The translations under genes were made by a program, and so were the position numbers. This document shows, piece after piece, positions 7,599-50,895 of a stretch of DNA of 57,728 bases. Source of the DNA: Caulobacter sp. (GTDB lineage: Bacteria > Pseudomonadota > Alphaproteobacteria > Caulobacterales > Caulobacteraceae); NCBI GenBank assembly GCA_019636175.1, contig JAHBYC010000014.1, positions 1 through 57,728 on the forward strand, given 5' to 3'. The notes beneath the pieces were generated by a model. The model made no database searches, was not told where the DNA came from, and worked only from the letters and a program-made list of their open reading frames with translations. The first letter of the stretch is position 1; every line of letters starts with the position of its first letter.

Positions 7599-7745
7599 GG
7601 CGTGGGTCTCCCGCGATGTGATGGCGTCCGGCGTTTGGCGGCCGGTTCGGGAAGGGAGATTAGCGGGGGAGGCGGGGAGGGGGAAGGGGATTCAAACGGA
7701 TGTTTGGGACAAGGGATTGCTGAAGGCCCGTGCACCGCTGGCGCG

Positions 7746-7795
7746 ACCCCTCATCCGACCTGCTTCGCAGGCCACCTTCTCCCTCAAGGGGAGTA
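7746..7795. repeat. CTCATCCG-type extragenic palindromic repeat
   Basis: CCCCTCATCCGACCTGCTTC, then GCAGGCCACCTTCTCCCTCA, then AGGGGAG. Two small palindromes (CCTGC-TTC-GCAGG, and CTCCC..GGGGAG) in the same order as the copies at 6336 and 10656. It is intergenic, just downstream of the gene ending at 7801. Confidence 0.75.
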
Positions 7796-7800
7796 GGGCC

Positions 7801-8397: not shown

Positions 8398-8485
8398 TGG
8401 CGCGAACTCCGGGCCTCTCGGGGCGGGGACTGGAAGGGCGGCGGGGATTGTCCGCGCGCCCTTCCTTCAAAGACCTTTCGCCGCG

Positions 8486-8590
8486 TTCCCGGCGAAGGCC
8501 GGGACCCAGATTATGAGGCGCTTGCTGCGAACGGGGTGACGGGTCCGGCAGCGCCTCTGGACCCCGGCCTTCGCCGGGGAGGCGGTCTGA
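8486..8590. repeat. Facing pair of CCGGCGAAGGCCGGG-type palindromes
   Basis: TTCCCGGCGAAGGCCGGGAC starting at 8486 and its inverted counterpart TCTGGACCCCGGCCTTCGCC starting near 8556 and ending GGGGAGGCGG. The two units are about 75 bases apart and complementary, as in the pair at 5419-5520. It fills the gap between the two secreted-protein genes. Confidence 0.75.
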
Positions 8591-10584: not shown

Positions 10585-10655
10585 CGCCGGTGTTGCAGGG
10601 TGTTTCCTGGTCAGTTGCCCGGGAAGCAGGCTGCGATTGCATCTAGAGTGGCGCG

Positions 10656-10708
10656 ACCCCTCATCCGACGCCCAACGGGCGCCACCTTCTCCCCCAAGGG
10701 GAGAAGGA
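10656..10708 (+). repeat. CTCATCCG-type extragenic repeat, forward orientation
   Basis: ACCCCTCATCCGACGCCCAA, then CGGGCGCCACCTTCTCCCCC, then AAGGGGAGAAGG. Together with 10531-10584 it fills most of the 450-bp gap between the spermidine-synthase-like gene and the enoyl-CoA hydratase. The remainder of the gap is the DUF559 remnant and a short leader. Confidence 0.78.
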
Positions 10709-11660: not shown

Positions 11661-13379
11661 ATGCGAACGTCCGAGTTCAAGACCGCCGCCCTGTCCGTCG
11701 CGCCGACCCTGTCGGCGGTATCGGCGCTGGTCGGCGGCATGGTTCTGCTGGCGTCGGGCGCCACCCCGACCGATCCCGAGCGGTTGGGCCTGCTGCTGCG
11801 GCTGTCGCCCGAGGCCCTGATCGACGCCAGCCACTTCGTCTCCTCGCTTCTGGGTCTGTTTCTGATCCTGCTGGCGTTCGGTCTGCGGGCCCGGCTGGGC
11901 GCCGCCTGGATGGGCGCGGTGACCTGCCTGGCCGTGGCCGCCGCCCTGGCCCCGCTCAAGGGCCTGAACGTTGAAGAGACCGGCATTCTGGTCCTGCTGC
12001 TGGCGCTGGTCGCGCCCTTCCGCTCCGCCTTCACCCGCACCGCCCGCCTCAGCCGGATGGAGATCACGCCCGGATGGCTGCTGTCGGCGGCGGCGGCGGT
12101 GGCCGGGGCCGGGCTGCTGGGCTGGTGGTCCTTCAGCAACGCCGACTACGGCGACCGGCAGGTCTGGCGGATGATGTTCGACGCCGATATCGAGCGGGCC
12201 ATCCGCAGCTCGGTCGGAGCCGGGGTGCTGTTGCTGGCGGTCGGGGTCTGGCGGCTGTTCGCCACCGCCGCGACGCCGGGCGTGGCGGGCGAGGACGACC
12301 CGGACTTCGCCCGCGTGCGCTGCATTCTTGGCAAGGCTGAAAGCGCCGAGCCGGAGTCCAACCTGGCCCTGCTGGGCGACAAGCGCTTCCTGTTCTCGGC
12401 GAGCGGCGAGACCTTCCTGATGTTCGGGGTTCGCGGGCGCTCCTGGGTGGCGATGGGTCCGCCGGTCGGCCGCCGCAATGAGCATTTGGAGCTGTTGTGG
12501 AAGTTCCGGGAGATGGCCGACGCCCACGCCGCCCGGCCCTGCATCTATGCTCTGGAGCCGGAAGACCTGGTCGATGTGGTGGAACTGGGATTCCACATCC
12601 AGAAGACCGGCGAGTCCGCCTCGGTGCCGCTGCAGGAATTCACCCTGGCCGGTCGCCGCCGCGAGGTGCTGCGCCGCAACTGGCGCAAGGCCGGGGAGAG
12701 CGGGGCGACCTTCGAGGTTGCGGCGCCAGGCGAGGCGCCGATGGACCAGCTGCAGCGCATTTCCGATGCCTGGCTGAAAACCCATTCCGGCGGCGAGAAG
12801 AGCTTTTCCCTGGGCGGCTTCATTCCGCGCTACGTCGCCGAGTTCCCGGTGGCCCTGGTGCGGTCGGGCGGACAGATCGTCGCCTTCGCCACCCTGTGGC
12901 CGACGGCCTCGCGCACCAGCCTGTCGATGGATCTGATGCGCTATGGCGAGGATGCGCCCAAGAACATCATGGACTTCCTGTTCGTCGAACTGCTGACCTG
13001 GGGGCGGGAGCAGGGTTATCTGGCGTTCGATTTCGGGGTCGCGCCTCTGGCCGGACTGGAGGACCGACCCCTGGCGCCGATCCTCAGCCGGGTCGGACGC
13101 CTGCTCTTCGAGCGGGGCGAGGAGTTCTATAATTTCAGGGGCGTGCGCCGGTACAAGGACAAGTACGACCCGCTTTGGCGGCCCCGATACATGGCCTGTC
13201 CGCACAAGTGGCAGGTGCCCTTCCTGCTGGCGGATGTCGGCCTGCTGTCGTCCGGCGGCATGACCGGCCTTGGTCGAAGGCCCAGGAAGGAAACGCCGGC
13301 CAGGCCCGCGCCGGACCCCTGTCCTGAAGGCGCGGCAAAGTCTCTTGAACTGGAGGGGCAGGCGTCGCGCCAGGGCTAG
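11661..13379 (+). CDS. MprF-like protein (DUF2156, phosphatidylglycerol lysyltransferase C-terminal domain)
   Basis: 572 residues. The N-terminal ~210 residues hold about six hydrophobic segments, far fewer than the flippase half of full MprF (about 850 residues). Residues about 220-540 match the DUF2156 double-GNAT synthase domain: LLGDKRFLFSASGETFLMFG, LRRNWRKAGESGATFEVAAP, SLSMDLMRYGEDAPKNIMDF, and NFRGVRRYKDKYDPLWRPRY near the end. Family members transfer amino acids from aminoacyl-tRNA to phosphatidylglycerol, lowering membrane charge. The last ~40 residues are a Pro/Arg-rich tail. The stop TAG overlaps the stop of the convergent small gene (CTAG). Confidence 0.82.
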   Translation: MRTSEFKTAALSVAPTLSAVSALVGGMVLLASGATPTDPERLGLLLRLSPEALIDASHFVSSLLGLFLILLAFGLRARLGAAWMGAVTCLAVAAALAPLKGLNVEETGILVLLLALVAPFRSAFTRTARLSRMEITPGWLLSAAAAVAGAGLLGWWSFSNADYGDRQVWRMMFDADIERAIRSSVGAGVLLLAVGVWRLFATAATPGVAGEDDPDFARVRCILGKAESAEPESNLALLGDKRFLFSASGETFLMFGVRGRSWVAMGPPVGRRNEHLELLWKFREMADAHAARPCIYALEPEDLVDVVELGFHIQKTGESASVPLQEFTLAGRRREVLRRNWRKAGESGATFEVAAPGEAPMDQLQRISDAWLKTHSGGEKSFSLGGFIPRYVAEFPVALVRSGGQIVAFATLWPTASRTSLSMDLMRYGEDAPKNIMDFLFVELLTWGREQGYLAFDFGVAPLAGLEDRPLAPILSRVGRLLFERGEEFYNFRGVRRYKDKYDPLWRPRYMACPHKWQVPFLLADVGLLSSGGMTGLGRRPRKETPARPAPDPCPEGAAKSLELEGQASRQG

Positions 13380-16941: not shown

Positions 16942-17862
16942 GTGGATCTGTATCTCCCGATCGCCGAGGTTTCGGTCAACGCGCCCTTGCTGGTGGCGCT
17001 TGGAGCGGCTGTCGGATTCATCTCCGGCCTGTTCGGCATCGGCGGCGGGTTCCTGATGACTCCCGTGCTGGTGTTTCTGGGCATTCCGCCGACGGTCGCG
17101 GTGGCCAGCGAGTCCAACCACGTCGCCGCCAGCTCGGTCTCCAGCGTCATCGCCTACAGCCGCCGACGCGCGGTCGACTTCAGGATGGGGGCCGTCCTGG
17201 CCAGCGGCGGCGTTGTTGGGGCCATCATTGGCGTCGAGGTGTTTCGCTTCCTGCTGCTGCTGGGCCAGGCCGACCTGGTGGTTTCGGTCTCCTACCTGCT
17301 GTTTCTGGGCGCCATCGGCAGCCTGATGCTGTGGGAGTCCCTGGGCACGGTGCTGCGGCGGCGGCGTGGAGAGATGCCCAAGCCGCGACGGGACCGCCGG
17401 CCAATGTGGCTCTACGCCCTGCCGCTCAAGGTCAGGTTCCCCCGCTCGCGGCTGTACATCAGCATCATTCCGCCGATTGTCCTGGGTCTTGGCGTCGGCA
17501 TCCTGTCGGCGATCATGGGGATCGGGGGCGGGTTTATCCTGGTTCCGGCGATGATCTACATCCTGCGGATGCCGGCGGGGGTGGTGGTCGGCACCAGCCT
17601 GTTCCAGATCATCATTACCACTTCGCTTACCAGCATGCTGCAGGCGGGCCGCAACCAGACCGTCGACATCGTCCTCTCGACCCTGCTGCTGATCGGCGGG
17701 GTGCTTGGCGCGCAGCTGGGCGCCCGGGCCTCTGCGCGGTTCCGGGCCGAGGAGTTGCGGGCCATCCTGGCGCTGATCGTGCTGCTGGTCGGCCTGCGGA
17801 TGGGCCTCAGCCTGTTCATCAATCCGGACGATCCCTTCGTCATCCTGTCGGGAGCCGGATGA
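16942..17862 (+). CDS. Sulfite exporter TauE/SafE family membrane protein
   Basis: 306 residues starting with GTG (16942). It has about eight transmembrane helices in two homologous halves, each marked by a glycine motif: LFGIGGGFLMTPVLVFLGIP (about residues 31-50) and IMGIGGGFILVPAMIYILRM (about 192-211). The family exports sulfite/sulfonates or other organic anions across the inner membrane. The gene overlaps the TIGR02186 gene by ATGA, the usual partner arrangement in alphaproteobacteria. Confidence 0.93.
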   Translation: MDLYLPIAEVSVNAPLLVALGAAVGFISGLFGIGGGFLMTPVLVFLGIPPTVAVASESNHVAASSVSSVIAYSRRRAVDFRMGAVLASGGVVGAIIGVEVFRFLLLLGQADLVVSVSYLLFLGAIGSLMLWESLGTVLRRRRGEMPKPRRDRRPMWLYALPLKVRFPRSRLYISIIPPIVLGLGVGILSAIMGIGGGFILVPAMIYILRMPAGVVVGTSLFQIIITTSLTSMLQAGRNQTVDIVLSTLLLIGGVLGAQLGARASARFRAEELRAILALIVLLVGLRMGLSLFINPDDPFVILSGAG

Positions 17863-18626
17863 TGGCCGAGATGCCCGCCGTTGAGACGCCGCAAGCCCAG
17901 GTCTCCGCCGTCCTGACCCAGTCCGAGGTCAAGGTGACCTCCGGTTTTCGCGGGGTGACCATCTCCGTCTATGGCGCGGTGTTCGATCCCGAGGGCAAGC
18001 CGGCCGATGTGGTGGTCACCCTGCGCGGGCCGGACCAGCCGGTGCGGATCGCCCGCAAGGTGCGCATCGCCGGGGTCTGGCTGAACAGCCGGCCGGTCGT
18101 GTTTCAGGGCGCGCCCGGCTACTACCACGTCTCCTCGTCCCGGACGCTGAACGATCTTGGCCGGTTCGCCGCCCTGCGCCAGCTGGGCCTTGGCATCGAT
18201 CACCTCGCCATCGCAGCCCCGGCGGAACGGCGCACCGAGACCCGCTATGGCATCCGCGACATGGTCGTCAGCAGCCTGGGCGCCGACTATTACGACTGGC
18301 GCAGCGCGGTGGTGCGGCTGAAAGCGGCGGGCGGACTTTACGCGGCCGACGAGAGGGGCGTGCGGTTTGTCGACAAGGGCCTGTTCCGGGCCGATATCCA
18401 GCTGCCGGCTGGCGCGCCCACGGGCCGCTACCAGGCCCAGATCGTGCTGTTCCAGGATGGCCAGCCGGTCTCGGTGCGCGAGCGGGTGCTGACGGTGGAA
18501 AAGGCCGGGGCCGAGCGGGCCCTCTATCTGTTCGCCCATGAGCGGCCCTGGCTCTATGGGCTGGTGTCGGTGATCATCGCCCTGGGCGCCGGCTGGCTGG
18601 CCTCAAGGCTGTTCCGCCGAAGCTAG
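17859..18626 (+). CDS. TIGR02186 family membrane-anchored protein
   Basis: 255 residues. The start is ATG at 17859, overlapping the TauE/SafE stop (ATGA). The extracytoplasmic beta-rich domain contains VTSGFRGVTISVYGAVFDPE and GYYHVSSSRTLNDLGRFAAL, the C-terminal beta domain contains LFRADIQLPAGAPTGRYQAQ, and a single transmembrane helix (LYGLVSVIIALGAGWLASRL) sits near the C-terminus. There is no clear N-terminal signal peptide in this frame; the short AVETPQAQV start is unusual for the family. It is presumed to work with the transporter. Its TAG stop is the first CTAG of the repeat element at 18623. Confidence 0.85.
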   Translation: MMAEMPAVETPQAQVSAVLTQSEVKVTSGFRGVTISVYGAVFDPEGKPADVVVTLRGPDQPVRIARKVRIAGVWLNSRPVVFQGAPGYYHVSSSRTLNDLGRFAALRQLGLGIDHLAIAAPAERRTETRYGIRDMVVSSLGADYYDWRSAVVRLKAAGGLYAADERGVRFVDKGLFRADIQLPAGAPTGRYQAQIVLFQDGQPVSVRERVLTVEKAGAERALYLFAHERPWLYGLVSVIIALGAGWLASRLFRRS

Positions 18627-18740
18627 ACCCTTTCATGTTTTGATGTACGCATCAAAACCTGATCAAAAGGGTCTAGAATCAAACATTTAGAGCATGTTCG
18701 GGCGGGCGAACCGCGTACACTTCGCCCTGACATGCTCTAG
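18623..18740. repeat. CTAG-bounded double-hairpin element, copy 1
   Basis: Bounded by CTAG at both ends. Hairpin 1: outer arms TAGACCCTTT/AAAGGGTCTA and inner arms GTTTTGATG/CATCAAAAC. Linker: GAATCAAACATT. Hairpin 2: TAGAGCATGT/ACATGCTCTA with an inner CGGGCG/CGCCC. It lies between convergent genes. The left CTAG contains the stop of the TIGR02186 gene (TAG 18624-18626) and the right CTAG contains the stop of pdeM (CTA 18737-18739 on the plus strand). Copy 3 (50778) is almost identical; copy 2 (22395) has other arm sequences but the same architecture. Confidence 0.88.
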
Positions 18741-19462
18741 TCGCCGCCGAGCATCGACCAGCTGAGCGGATGGGCGCGGTCCTTGCCGAGAGCCACGGCC
18801 AGGGGCGGGCCGGTGAACATGCCTGCATAGGCCTTGTCGCGGATGTTGAGGCCCCCGGCATAGGCGCCGAAGGCCGGCAGGATGACCCGCTCCCCATCCG
18901 TCACAAAGCAGCGCCGCCGCACGGCCCGGCCGCGACCCAGCAGGCGGGCGCAGGGGTGCAGGTGGCCGGCGACCTCTCCGGCCTGGCGACCGGCAAGGGG
19001 CTCGTGTCGCAGGATCAGGCGGCCGATGGCGATCTCGTCGGCCAGGTCGCCCGGCAGGTCCCTTGGCCCGTCGGCGTCGTGGTTGCCGACGACCCAGATC
19101 AGCCGGCGCCCGCGCGCCAGGCCGGCGATGCGGCCGGCGTGGGCGCCGGCCAGGCGGTCCTCGGCTCGGCTGTCGTGGAAACTGTCGCCCAGCAGGACCA
19201 CCGTGCGGGCGGCGGTCGCGTCGATCTCCGCCTCCAGTCGACGCAAGGTCTCGGCGGTGTCGTAGGGCGGCAGCAGCTGGCCGCGCTCGGCATAGGCGCT
19301 GCCCTTCTCGAAATGCAGGTCGGCGACGATCAGCATGCCTTCGTCGGCCAGCCAAAGGGCGCCGGACGGCCGCATGACCGCCGGCTGTCCATTGATCGCC
19401 ATGGCCACCCCGCCGCAGGGGCTCTGGGCGAAAAGACGTTCCTTCAGGGCGGCGGCGTTCAA
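18737..19462 (-). CDS. pdeM: Ligase-associated DNA damage response endonuclease PdeM
   Basis: 241-residue metallophosphatase-fold protein. The metal-ligand motifs are in order: VADLHFEKG (Asp/His, about 47-55), LLGDSFHD (about 90-97), VVGNHD (about 124-129), RHEP (about 152-155) and GHLHP (about 166-170). In the family, PdeM is one of four genes (exonuclease, ATP-dependent ligase, DEXH helicase, PdeM). Here it overlaps the helicase stop by 4 nt (ATGA), so the two are co-transcribed. Confidence 0.93.
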   Translation of the reverse strand: MNAAALKERLFAQSPCGGVAMAINGQPAVMRPSGALWLADEGMLIVADLHFEKGSAYAERGQLLPPYDTAETLRRLEAEIDATAARTVVLLGDSFHDSRAEDRLAGAHAGRIAGLARGRRLIWVVGNHDADGPRDLPGDLADEIAIGRLILRHEPLAGRQAGEVAGHLHPCARLLGRGRAVRRRCFVTDGERVILPAFGAYAGGLNIRDKAYAGMFTGPPLAVALGKDRAHPLSWSMLGGD

Positions 19463-22029: not shown

Positions 22030-22398
22030 ATGGACGAGATCAGGGACATTGCCGGGGTGACGGTTCTGATGGCGGCGGCGGACGGACCGCCGGTCGCCAC
22101 CGAAGGCGATGCGACCGACCTGATCGGCGAGGCCCTGGGCGGCCGGGCGGAGATGATCGTCATGCCGGTAGCCCGGCTGCACCCCGATTTCCTGGATCTG
22201 TCCACGCGCATGGCCGGCCTGGTGATCCAGAAGTTCACCAACTACCGCCTGCGCGCCGCCATCCTGGGCGATATCGGCGCGTTCCTCGACCGCAGCGAGG
22301 CCTTGCGGGCCTTTGTGGTGGAATCCAACCGGGGCCAGGGGCTTTGGTTCGTCGCCGACGAGGCGGCGCTGGCGGCGCGCCTTCGGACAGACGGCTAG
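22030..22398 (+). CDS. DUF4180 domain-containing protein
   Basis: 122 residues. The start is set at 22030 (MDEIRDIAGVTVLMAAADGP) because GGAGG at 22020-22024 is 5 bases upstream; 22009 and 22018 are alternatives in the same frame. IGEALGGRAEMIVMPVARLH, PDFLDLSTRMAGLVIQKFTN and FVVESNRGQGLWFVADEAAL match the single-domain DUF4180 family, which has no established function. It is divergent from the helicase gene and its TAG stop is the first CTAG of repeat copy 2. Confidence 0.85.
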   Translation: MDEIRDIAGVTVLMAAADGPPVATEGDATDLIGEALGGRAEMIVMPVARLHPDFLDLSTRMAGLVIQKFTNYRLRAAILGDIGAFLDRSEALRAFVVESNRGQGLWFVADEAALAARLRTDG

Positions 22399-22505
22399 AG
22401 CCTGTTCCCTTTTGGCGGCCCGCCAAAAGGGTAAAACAGGCTCTAAACTAAACATTTAGAGCACGATGCGATTAGACGGTTCCGTCTAATCGCATCGTGC
22501 TCTAG
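22395..22505. repeat. CTAG-bounded double-hairpin element, copy 2 (divergent arms)
   Basis: Hairpin 1: TAGAGCCTGTT/AACAGGCTCTA enclosing CCCTTTTGGCGG/CCGCCAAAAGGG. Linker AACTAAACATT. Hairpin 2: TAGAGCACGATGCGATTAGA.../...CATCGTGCTCTA, a perfect stem of 23 bp with loop TT. The arm sequences differ from copies 1 and 3 on both sides of each stem, so pairing is kept by compensating changes while the linker and the CTAG ends are conserved. The left CTAG holds the DUF4180 stop; the right end is 12 bp before the esterase stop. Confidence 0.85.
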
Positions 22506-26390: not shown

Positions 26391-26434
26391 TCCCTTCCCC
26401 CTGGAGGGGGGAAGGGCCGGGGATGGGGGTGGAG
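26391..26434 (+). repeat. Palindromic repeat (CCCTTCCCCCTGGAGG type), forward
   Basis: TCCCTTCCCCCTGGAGGGGG, then GAAGGGCCGGGGATGGGGGT, then GGAGG. The core CCCTTCCCCC/GGGGGGAAGGG is a hairpin. An inverted copy follows at 26536-26579 and the two flank about 100 bp without a gene, just after the helicase stop. Confidence 0.7.
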
Positions 26435-26535
26435 GTGTTTCCGCCAAACTGTCTCTGCGAGCATATTCTCAATCTTCCGGGCCAGACTTTTCCTGTCTTT
26501 CGCCGCTCCTCCTCGAGCACCGCGCGAGTTGAACG

Positions 26536-26579
26536 CCCTCCACCCCCATCCCAACCCTTCCCCCCTCCAGGGGGAAGGG
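26536..26579 (-). repeat. Palindromic repeat (CCCTTCCCCCTGGAGG type), inverted copy
   Basis: CCCTCCACCCCCATCCCAAC, then CCTTCCCCCCTCCAGGGGGA, then AGGG. It is the reverse complement, with a few changes, of the unit at 26391-26434 and lies immediately upstream of the O-methyltransferase ribosome-binding site. Confidence 0.7.
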
Positions 26580-50220: not shown

Positions 50221-50781
50221 ATGCAGATAACCCCTCATGCGCCGTCCGGCTGGCCCGCCCTGGTGCTGAACGCCGACTTCAGGCCGCTCAGCTATTATCC
50301 CCTGTCGATCTGGCCCTGGCAGGATGTGATCAAGGCGGTGTTCCTTGACCGCGTCGATGTCATTTCGACCTATGACGAGGTGATCCGCAGTCCATCGTTC
50401 GAGATGAAGCTGCCCAGCGTCGTGTCGCTGAAGCAGTATGTCTCGCAGGACCGGCCCCCCGCCTTCACCCGCTTCAACCTGTTCCTGCGCGACTCCTTCA
50501 GCTGTCAGTATTGCGGCCGGGCCGAGGATCTGACGTTCGACCATGTGCTGCCCCGCTCGCGCGGCGGGCGGACCACCTGGGAAAACATCGTCACCGCCTG
50601 CGCCCCCTGCAACTTGACCAAGGGCGGCCGCACGCCGCGGGAGGCGGGCATGCATCCCTATCGCGCGCCAAGACGCCCCAGCATGCATGAACTGCAGGAA
50701 CGCGGCCGCCGCTTCCCGCCCGGCCACCTGCACGAAAGCTGGCTCGACTACCTGTACTGGGACATCGAGCTGGAAGCCTAG
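50221..50781 (+). CDS. HNH endonuclease
   Basis: 186 residues from ATG 50221, with GGGAG 8 bases upstream; 50140 is an in-frame alternative. The core starts PALVLNADFRPLSYYPLSIW and includes FSCQYCGRAEDLTFDHVLPR and WENIVTACAPCNLTKGG, an HNH motif with two CxxC zinc pairs. The family is common in alphaproteobacteria as a stand-alone chromosomal nuclease of unknown role. Its TAG stop is the left CTAG of repeat copy 3. Confidence 0.93.
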   Translation: MQITPHAPSGWPALVLNADFRPLSYYPLSIWPWQDVIKAVFLDRVDVISTYDEVIRSPSFEMKLPSVVSLKQYVSQDRPPAFTRFNLFLRDSFSCQYCGRAEDLTFDHVLPRSRGGRTTWENIVTACAPCNLTKGGRTPREAGMHPYRAPRRPSMHELQERGRRFPPGHLHESWLDYLYWDIELEA

Positions 50782-50895
50782 ACCCTTTCAGGTTTTGAAG
50801 TACGCATCAAAACCTGATCAAAAGGGTCTAGAATCAAACATTTAGAGCATGTCCGGGCGGGCGGACCGCGTGCACTTCGCCCTGACATGCTCTAG
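50778..50895. repeat. CTAG-bounded double-hairpin element, copy 3
   Basis: Hairpin 1: TAGACCCTTT/AAAGGGTCTA enclosing AGGTTTTGA.../...TCAAAACCT. Linker GAATCAAACATT. Hairpin 2: TAGAGCATGT/ACATGCTCTA enclosing CGGGCG/CGCCC. Nearly identical to copy 1, with few base changes. The left CTAG holds the HNH stop (TAG 50779-50781) and the right CTAG the stop of the sulfotransferase-like gene (CTA 50892-50894 on the plus strand). Confidence 0.88.

Follow-up and report, generated by a model that had tools for sequence, protein, structure and literature searches.

The window analysed here is a stretch of 57,728 bp from the draft genome of a Caulobacter species (3.17 Mb, 91 contigs, 87% complete). Two convergent genes in this window, a gene of the Alph_Pro_TM/TIGR02186 type and pdeM, are separated by an element that runs from CTAG to CTAG over 118 bp (18623-18740). 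The sequence-only reading of this locus described a two-hairpin repeat with a conserved linker and CTAG ends, the left CTAG being the stop of the TIGR02186 gene and the right one that of pdeM, and reported a nearly unchanged recurrence at 50778-50895. All of this was borne out by the analysis. The two copies are 96% identical, and each forms two hairpins with plus-strand folds of -56.4 and -62.3 kcal/mol (z = -9.59 and -8.95; 0 of 200 shuffles fold equally well). The upstream gene scores 172 bits against TIGR02186, which is under the model's own cut-off of 255. The ends of the second copy likewise carry both stops, that of an HNH gene (end at 50781) and that of the opposite gene (end at 50892). 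The HNH endonuclease gene (50263-50781, plus strand) has a weak similarity to an IscB model (1e-11, below the cut-off).

The same reading counted three copies. Two of them are true copies, and the third (22395-22505) is a relative of the 18623-18740 element and not a copy. It has CTAG ends and the linker with 3 mismatches in 20 (mean of 0 in shuffles), and its hairpins are different. The stop of its left gene lies inside the left CTAG, and the stop of the right neighbour is located 11 bp outside. The window also holds an unoccupied CTAG of the kind used by the element as a target (Table 1). Further direct or inverted repeats are present at 7739-7797 and 10649-10707, at 8481-8585, and at 26392-26579; by eye they are unlike the element. 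An Rfam search at gathering scores gave no match across the window.

Table 1. Features of the window around the two element copies, the related element and an unoccupied target
Feature	Position	Strand	Remarks
Unoccupied CTAG	13376..13379	.	carries the stops of both members of a predicted convergent gene pair, of which the right one is weakly predicted
Alph_Pro_TM / TIGR02186-like gene	17859..18626	+	stop in the element's left TAG; PF09608 2.9e-69
Left TA of target duplication	18624..18625, inside CTAG 18623-18626	.	read from sequence; empty-site comparison at other copies
Hairpin 1, copy 1	18626..18673	+	core start GACC; first G finishes the upstream gene's TAG stop
Conserved linker TAGAATCAAACATTTA, copy 1	18674..18689	+	mean pairwise identity 0.92, against 0.69-0.70 in the hairpins
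Hairpin 2, copy 1	18690..18737	+	core end GCTC; last C finishes pdeM's minus-strand TAG stop
Right TA of target duplication	18738..18739, inside CTAG 18737-18740	.	
pdeM	18737..19462	-	stop in the element's right TAG; TIGR04123 2e-65
Second-family element core, 105 bp	22398..22502	+	hairpins 22398-22443 and 22459-22502; linker 22444-22458; CTAG at 22395 and 22502
Copy 2 core, 112 bp	50781..50892	+	hairpins 50781-50828 and 50845-50892; linker 50829-50844
TA pairs beside copy 2 core	50779-50780 and 50893-50894		

The first family is represented in the draft genome by 27 near-full copies, two copies cut by contig ends, and one contig-end tail, with 92-100% identity to the window copy. The second family has been found at six places, two of which are partial. 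A search for carriage of the element by plasmids or phages gave no match. Among the 75 genomes of the genus, 22 contain the 13-base linker, and the exact sites number 22 in the genome of origin and 41 in another genome (G089); the reversed linker pattern gives one site in all 75. The exact linker is absent from the close relatives G064, G060, and G062. Beyond the genus, a sample of 385 alphaproteobacterial genomes, drawn without other genomes of the genus, contains the linker plus closing arm in one genome only, the genome of origin. In a pattern scan of named genomes, the matches listed include numerous Caulobacter records and some further alphaproteobacteria, along with isolated sites in unrelated genera; among those for linker plus arm are several contigs belonging to a single record set with the title Xanthobacteraceae. 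The single linker-plus-arm places in unrelated genera are probably due to chance, and there is no more than a hint of a broader relationship to rhizobial repeats.

The two parts of the element differ in conservation. Among 62 elements distinct in inner sequence, the linker has a mean identity of 92%, in contrast to 69-70% in the hairpins. The hairpins fall into 7 and 6 clusters, and representatives of all 13 clusters fold. Since the clusters are combined in several ways, the hairpins have apparently been swapped or replaced as modules. Two elements from C. vibrioides OR37 / G089 (L223, L151) join a hairpin 1 of one kind to a hairpin 2 of another, their halves seemingly having been swapped, and three G089 sites (L136, L137, L140) are one-sided truncations that keep the linker and hairpin 2 with no matching hairpin 1. 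Unlike classical MITEs, the elements do not pair simply from end to end. To judge from its bases, each hairpin resembles a single transposon end joined to an inverted copy of itself.

The boundaries of the element were examined at 142 linker sites. Both ends were located in 74 of these, with TA required on both sides; this tally counts each site once, and the set of 62 elements merges sites with identical inner 70 bases. The first base of the core is G at 74/74 sites and the last base is C at 73/74. The base before the left TA is C at 64 sites, T at 8, and G at 2, and the base after the right TA is G at 55, A at 15, T at 3, and C at 1. The bases beyond the TAs are variable and the G and C of the element are not, and for this reason the duplication is read as TA rather than CTAG. 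A 4-bp duplication of CTAG was considered and rejected: 21 of the 74 sites read CTAG/CTAA or TTAG/CTAG, which fits TA and not 4 bp. By eye, TA is found on both sides of 26/27 near-full copies in the genome of origin, the left side of the remaining one (L022) being TG. The most suitable reading of the unit is a core of 105-116 bp (GA[GC]C...GCTC) with a copy of the duplicated TA on either side, the target being YTAR and mostly CTAG.

Empty sites have been obtained from related genomes. The joined flanks of the sites in the genome of origin (29/30 usable) were searched in four relatives, and 40 matching stretches were aligned. The comparison with G064 took in 25 of the 29 sites. At two of them (C16:36390 and C23:65460) G064 has the predicted single CTAG where the genome of origin has CTAG-core-CTAG, and G019 also has a single shared CTAG at the site orthologous to C23:65460. 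In all three empty sites, the two overlapping reading frames stay open as far as the retrieved stretch extends. Together with the flank bases, these sites support the proposal of the sequence-only reading that the element inserts at CTAG, more exactly at the TA inside CTAG, with duplication of TA. That no more than two of the 25 G064 sites are clean in this way speaks against the MITE reading. At 19 of the 25 sites the element is absent and the aligned flanks are -27 to 36 bp apart, and the remaining four carry 86-568 bp of different sequence. When the 25 G064 stretches were searched by BLAST with both element families, no match was obtained at E 0.1. At the pdeM site of G064, both genes keep the same last codons across a 9-bp gap with no CTAG. 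Truncation of genes by the insertion is disfavoured at TIGR02186/pdeM, C16:36390, and C23:65460 because the sister genes align up to the edge of the element and have the same last codon.

Some orthologous sites are occupied by other sequences. The G064 ortholog of C35:17155 (L173, on C15), one of the four sites with different sequence, is CTAG-bounded and folds as two hairpins, and the G014 ortholog (L194, on C155) holds a third, one-hairpin kind that is also CTAG-bounded. In G060 the same site (L195) has a single CTAG, with its right side unaligned. Also, the G060 ortholog of C15:4216 (L176, C646:7024-7410) is an element-free site that reads CTAGCTAG. This could be the excision scar of such an element, although it is a single case and may be a chance occurrence.

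The placement of the element relative to genes was scored with a simple codon-based gene caller for 29 complete elements of the genome of origin (26 of the first family and 3 of the second), leaving out one contig-end copy, L055, and the partial copies L028, L029, L056, and L058. In this set 25 elements lie between convergent genes, three between tandem genes, and one between divergent, weakly predicted genes; by comparison, 8/58 of the other gene pairs in the window are convergent. Including the left-out copies where possible gives 27 convergent, 4 tandem, and 1 divergent of 32, with three more at contig edges. The two outcomes against which the sequence-only reading had set its proposal, only two or three copies per genome or random placement, did not occur, the copies numbering about 29. 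A facing gene stops on the terminal TAG in 17/26 cases on the left and in 19/27 on the right, with an offset of 3 or 4 bases allowed. At least one stop coincides with an element end in 24/29 elements, compared with 9/32 for other CTAGs (Fisher p = 3e-5), and both stops do so in 12/29 compared with 1/32 (Fisher p = 3e-4). These other CTAGs were taken from the window and flanking loci, and 5/32 of them are inside genes. CTAG is rare in the window, with 27 observed against 67 or 166 expected. This rarity accounts for part of the excess of stops. Since the excess surpasses the availability of CTAG, target choice alone is an insufficient explanation, and purifying selection or true targeting must account for the rest. 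In the relatives, where 22 incomplete elements were set aside and 20 of the 41 G089 sites were retrieved by place, 26 complete elements comprise 11 convergent, 15 tandem, and no divergent placements, and gene stops fall at the element end in 16/20 left-facing and 9/17 right-facing cases. Elements are generally placed at the 3' ends of genes, and the bias towards convergent pairs is most pronounced in the genome of origin.

A candidate enzyme for this target was found in transposons of the IS630 family. The IS630 transposase (PF13358) is present in 16/75 genomes of the genus. Both ends were located for 14 of 27 IS630 loci (six in G046), and their cores measure 1041-1050 bp. These transposons have GAGC ends directly after YTA, with CTAG as the target at 12 loci and TTAG at two. 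The end search asked for TAGAGC/T, and an inverted-repeat search returned the same ends unasked at one locus (L313). In the six G046 copies the shared sequence stops exactly between CTA and GAGC with no motif imposed. The open frame of the G019 IS630 has 326 codons and encodes DDE_3 and HTH_Tnp_IS630 domains. No hit came from searching the PDB with the sequence of the IS630 protein.

The ends of the transposons and of the elements have been compared base by base. The right end of the G019 IS630 matches that of family A in 12/12 bases, yet in only 13/20 over a longer stretch, a level also reached by 20 other 20-mers of the window. The left end matches in 15/20 bases, and no other 20-mer of the window gets to 15. 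A second matching family of elements (MAG_BA202, 7 sites) agrees with the G074 IS630 end in 12/12 bases, and 26 of the 74 element right ends have an exact 12/12 match to IS630. Outside family A, the right end seen most often is GAGCGTGATAGC (23/74 sites), and it has no match among the IS630 ends found. Seven of eight classifiable IS630 copies lie between convergent genes, six of the 14 not being classifiable, and 8/14 are located off stop codons. On the other hand, PF13358 has no match in the genome of origin (an 87%-complete draft) or in G089, which carries the most linker sites, and element and IS630 occur together in 5 genomes against about 4.7 expected in a hand tally of the 75 genomes. 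The assignment of IS630 as the enzyme is drawn from the shared ends, target, and placement.

The element is most likely a non-autonomous, CIR-like two-hairpin MITE moved by a transposase of the IS630/Tc1-mariner type, to which we give a probability of roughly 0.8. An IS630-type transposase, now absent or missing from the draft, would have pasted the core into the TA within YTAR, preferably CTAG, and the TA would have been duplicated on insertion. CTAG is infrequent in the genome of origin and is found mostly outside coding sequence, partly as TAG stops. Where two convergent genes have four bases in common at their ends, a single CTAG holds both stops; after insertion, the upstream gene would end in TA+G, giving TAG, and the downstream gene in C+TA, which is TAG on the opposite strand. 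With G as the first and C as the last base of the core, the stops on either strand would be rebuilt and both proteins would keep their ends. Hits on shared convergent stops would therefore be cheap and would persist. Insertion at rebuilt stops probably does little harm, and the rebuilding may be the cause of this tolerance. The hairpins would serve transposition rather than the host. A bolder version, which we regard as tentative and rather doubtful, is that the IS630 lineage and its miniatures live in a stop-codon-safe manner, with the enzyme or the DNA context actively favouring convergent ends. If so, the host would acquire a hairpin spacer that separates genes which had overlapped before.

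The sequence-only reading left open whether the element is mobile or a terminator, and the evidence above favours the mobile element. A bidirectional terminator or stabiliser of mRNA 3' ends, selected between convergent genes and also supplying their stops, would explain the strong hairpins on both strands and the 25/29 elements between convergent genes, and the folding of all 13 cluster representatives despite their differing sequences agrees with it. However, in the first copy, which was scanned, no T-run terminator-like site overlaps the element, and the two sites that were found lie outside it. The orthologous gene pairs of G064 also do without the element, the copies are nearly identical and lineage-specific as in a recent spread, 15/26 of the relatives' elements are tandem, and IS630 elements occupy the same kind of place. 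Host function of this kind is an unlikely account of the repeat.

Two other enzymes have been weighed against IS630. The earlier reading suggested a RAYT (IS200/IS605) partner, under which the repeat would belong to the REP/BIME-like elements, a Y1 transposase would move it, and CTAG would be the tetranucleotide at the hairpin foot. The paired hairpins have such a tetranucleotide and the genome of origin has two Y1 matches, but this suggestion is not supported. G089, with its 41 exact-linker sites, has no Y1 match, and neither have G082 and G056, while G064, G060, and G062 have Y1 matches and are all without the exact linker. Y1 and linker occur together in 7 genomes against 6.5 expected (hand tally, 75 genomes). 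The Y1 class is not known to make a target duplication, so the observed duplication of TA does not fit it, and we consider this origin very improbable. The second candidate is a transposase of the IS5 family (DUF4096, IS427-like), which would have moved the element as a MITE. IS711 is a member of this family. The available text of PMC2266754 gives a YTAR target with duplication of TA for IS711, which is the same target as that of our element, and IS5-type elements of the genus and order also have CTAG-adjacent ends. On the other hand, these ends start with GGGTCTG, GGTCGTAG, or GGTTATGG and not with GAGC (some loci judged by eye), and no IS5-type element with GAGCATGTCAGG ends was seen. PF13340 has no match in the genome of origin, G089, G082, or G056, and it occurs together with the linker in 8 genomes against 7.3 expected (hand tally). 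An IS5-type mover is accordingly judged quite unlikely.

Five loci of the genus and order (L066, L065, L067, L068, and L318) carry IS5-type (DUF4096) elements with CTAG at some of their ends, so this target may be shared by another family of transposons. G019 has six places of identical PF13340 score, which appear to be six similar IS5-type elements and are perhaps recently active.

For CIR-like elements, these results provide a target site with its duplication, empty sites, and, in a sister species, an open gene for a candidate enzyme. They offer a concrete case of selfish DNA for which overlapping stops provide a low-cost landing place in a compact, GC-rich genome. Also, an enrichment at convergent gene ends need not imply a terminator function.

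Several known systems resemble parts of this picture. According to the portions of PMC2170065 available, IS630-family transposases duplicate TA, and a preference of IS630 for TA in CTAG is stated in the title of Tenzen and Ohtsubo 1991, cited there. IS630 of Shigella and ISY100 share the TA duplication; they are autonomous, and the same portions make no claim of convergent stops for them. The accessible part of PMC9208149 lists IS630 among the families over-represented between convergent genes. The RUP element of pneumococcus, as presented in the available sections of the review PMC2229807, is a 107-bp MITE tied to IS630-Spn1 by similar ends and TA targets; it belongs to a different host and is not described in those sections as two-armed or as located in shared stop codons. 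Among the short palindromic repeats of the alphaproteobacteria, Bru-RS (103-118 bp) is likened to the element by its description in the available parts of PMC2266754 and PMC2267715, and RIME1 by a reference title. A literature search with few subscription papers in scope brought up two reviews (PMC10969869, PMC2229807) and two surveys of genomes, and no paper that links such repeats to IS630.

The closest relatives are the CIR repeats, which are likewise about 110 bp long and multicopy, have two hairpin arms, a linker, and terminal TA, and occur in the same genus. In the sections of PMC2229807 available, which cite Chen and Shapiro 2003, CIR repeats are described with GANTC at the terminal loop. 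In contrast, GANTC was found in the hairpins of 0/21 elements of the genome of origin and at the junction in 10/21. Because of this absence from the hairpins, the elements are termed CIR-like rather than CIR by strict definition. Over the 74 sites, GANTC is present in hairpin 1 at 36, in hairpin 2 at 7, and at the junction at 16, the position within the hairpin not being scored. In those sections, the 2007 review gives the CIR target duplication as "?" and the mechanism of mobility as needing more information. Beside that description, the additions made here are the target, the TA duplication, a candidate enzyme, and insertion at convergent stops with a geometry that would rebuild them.
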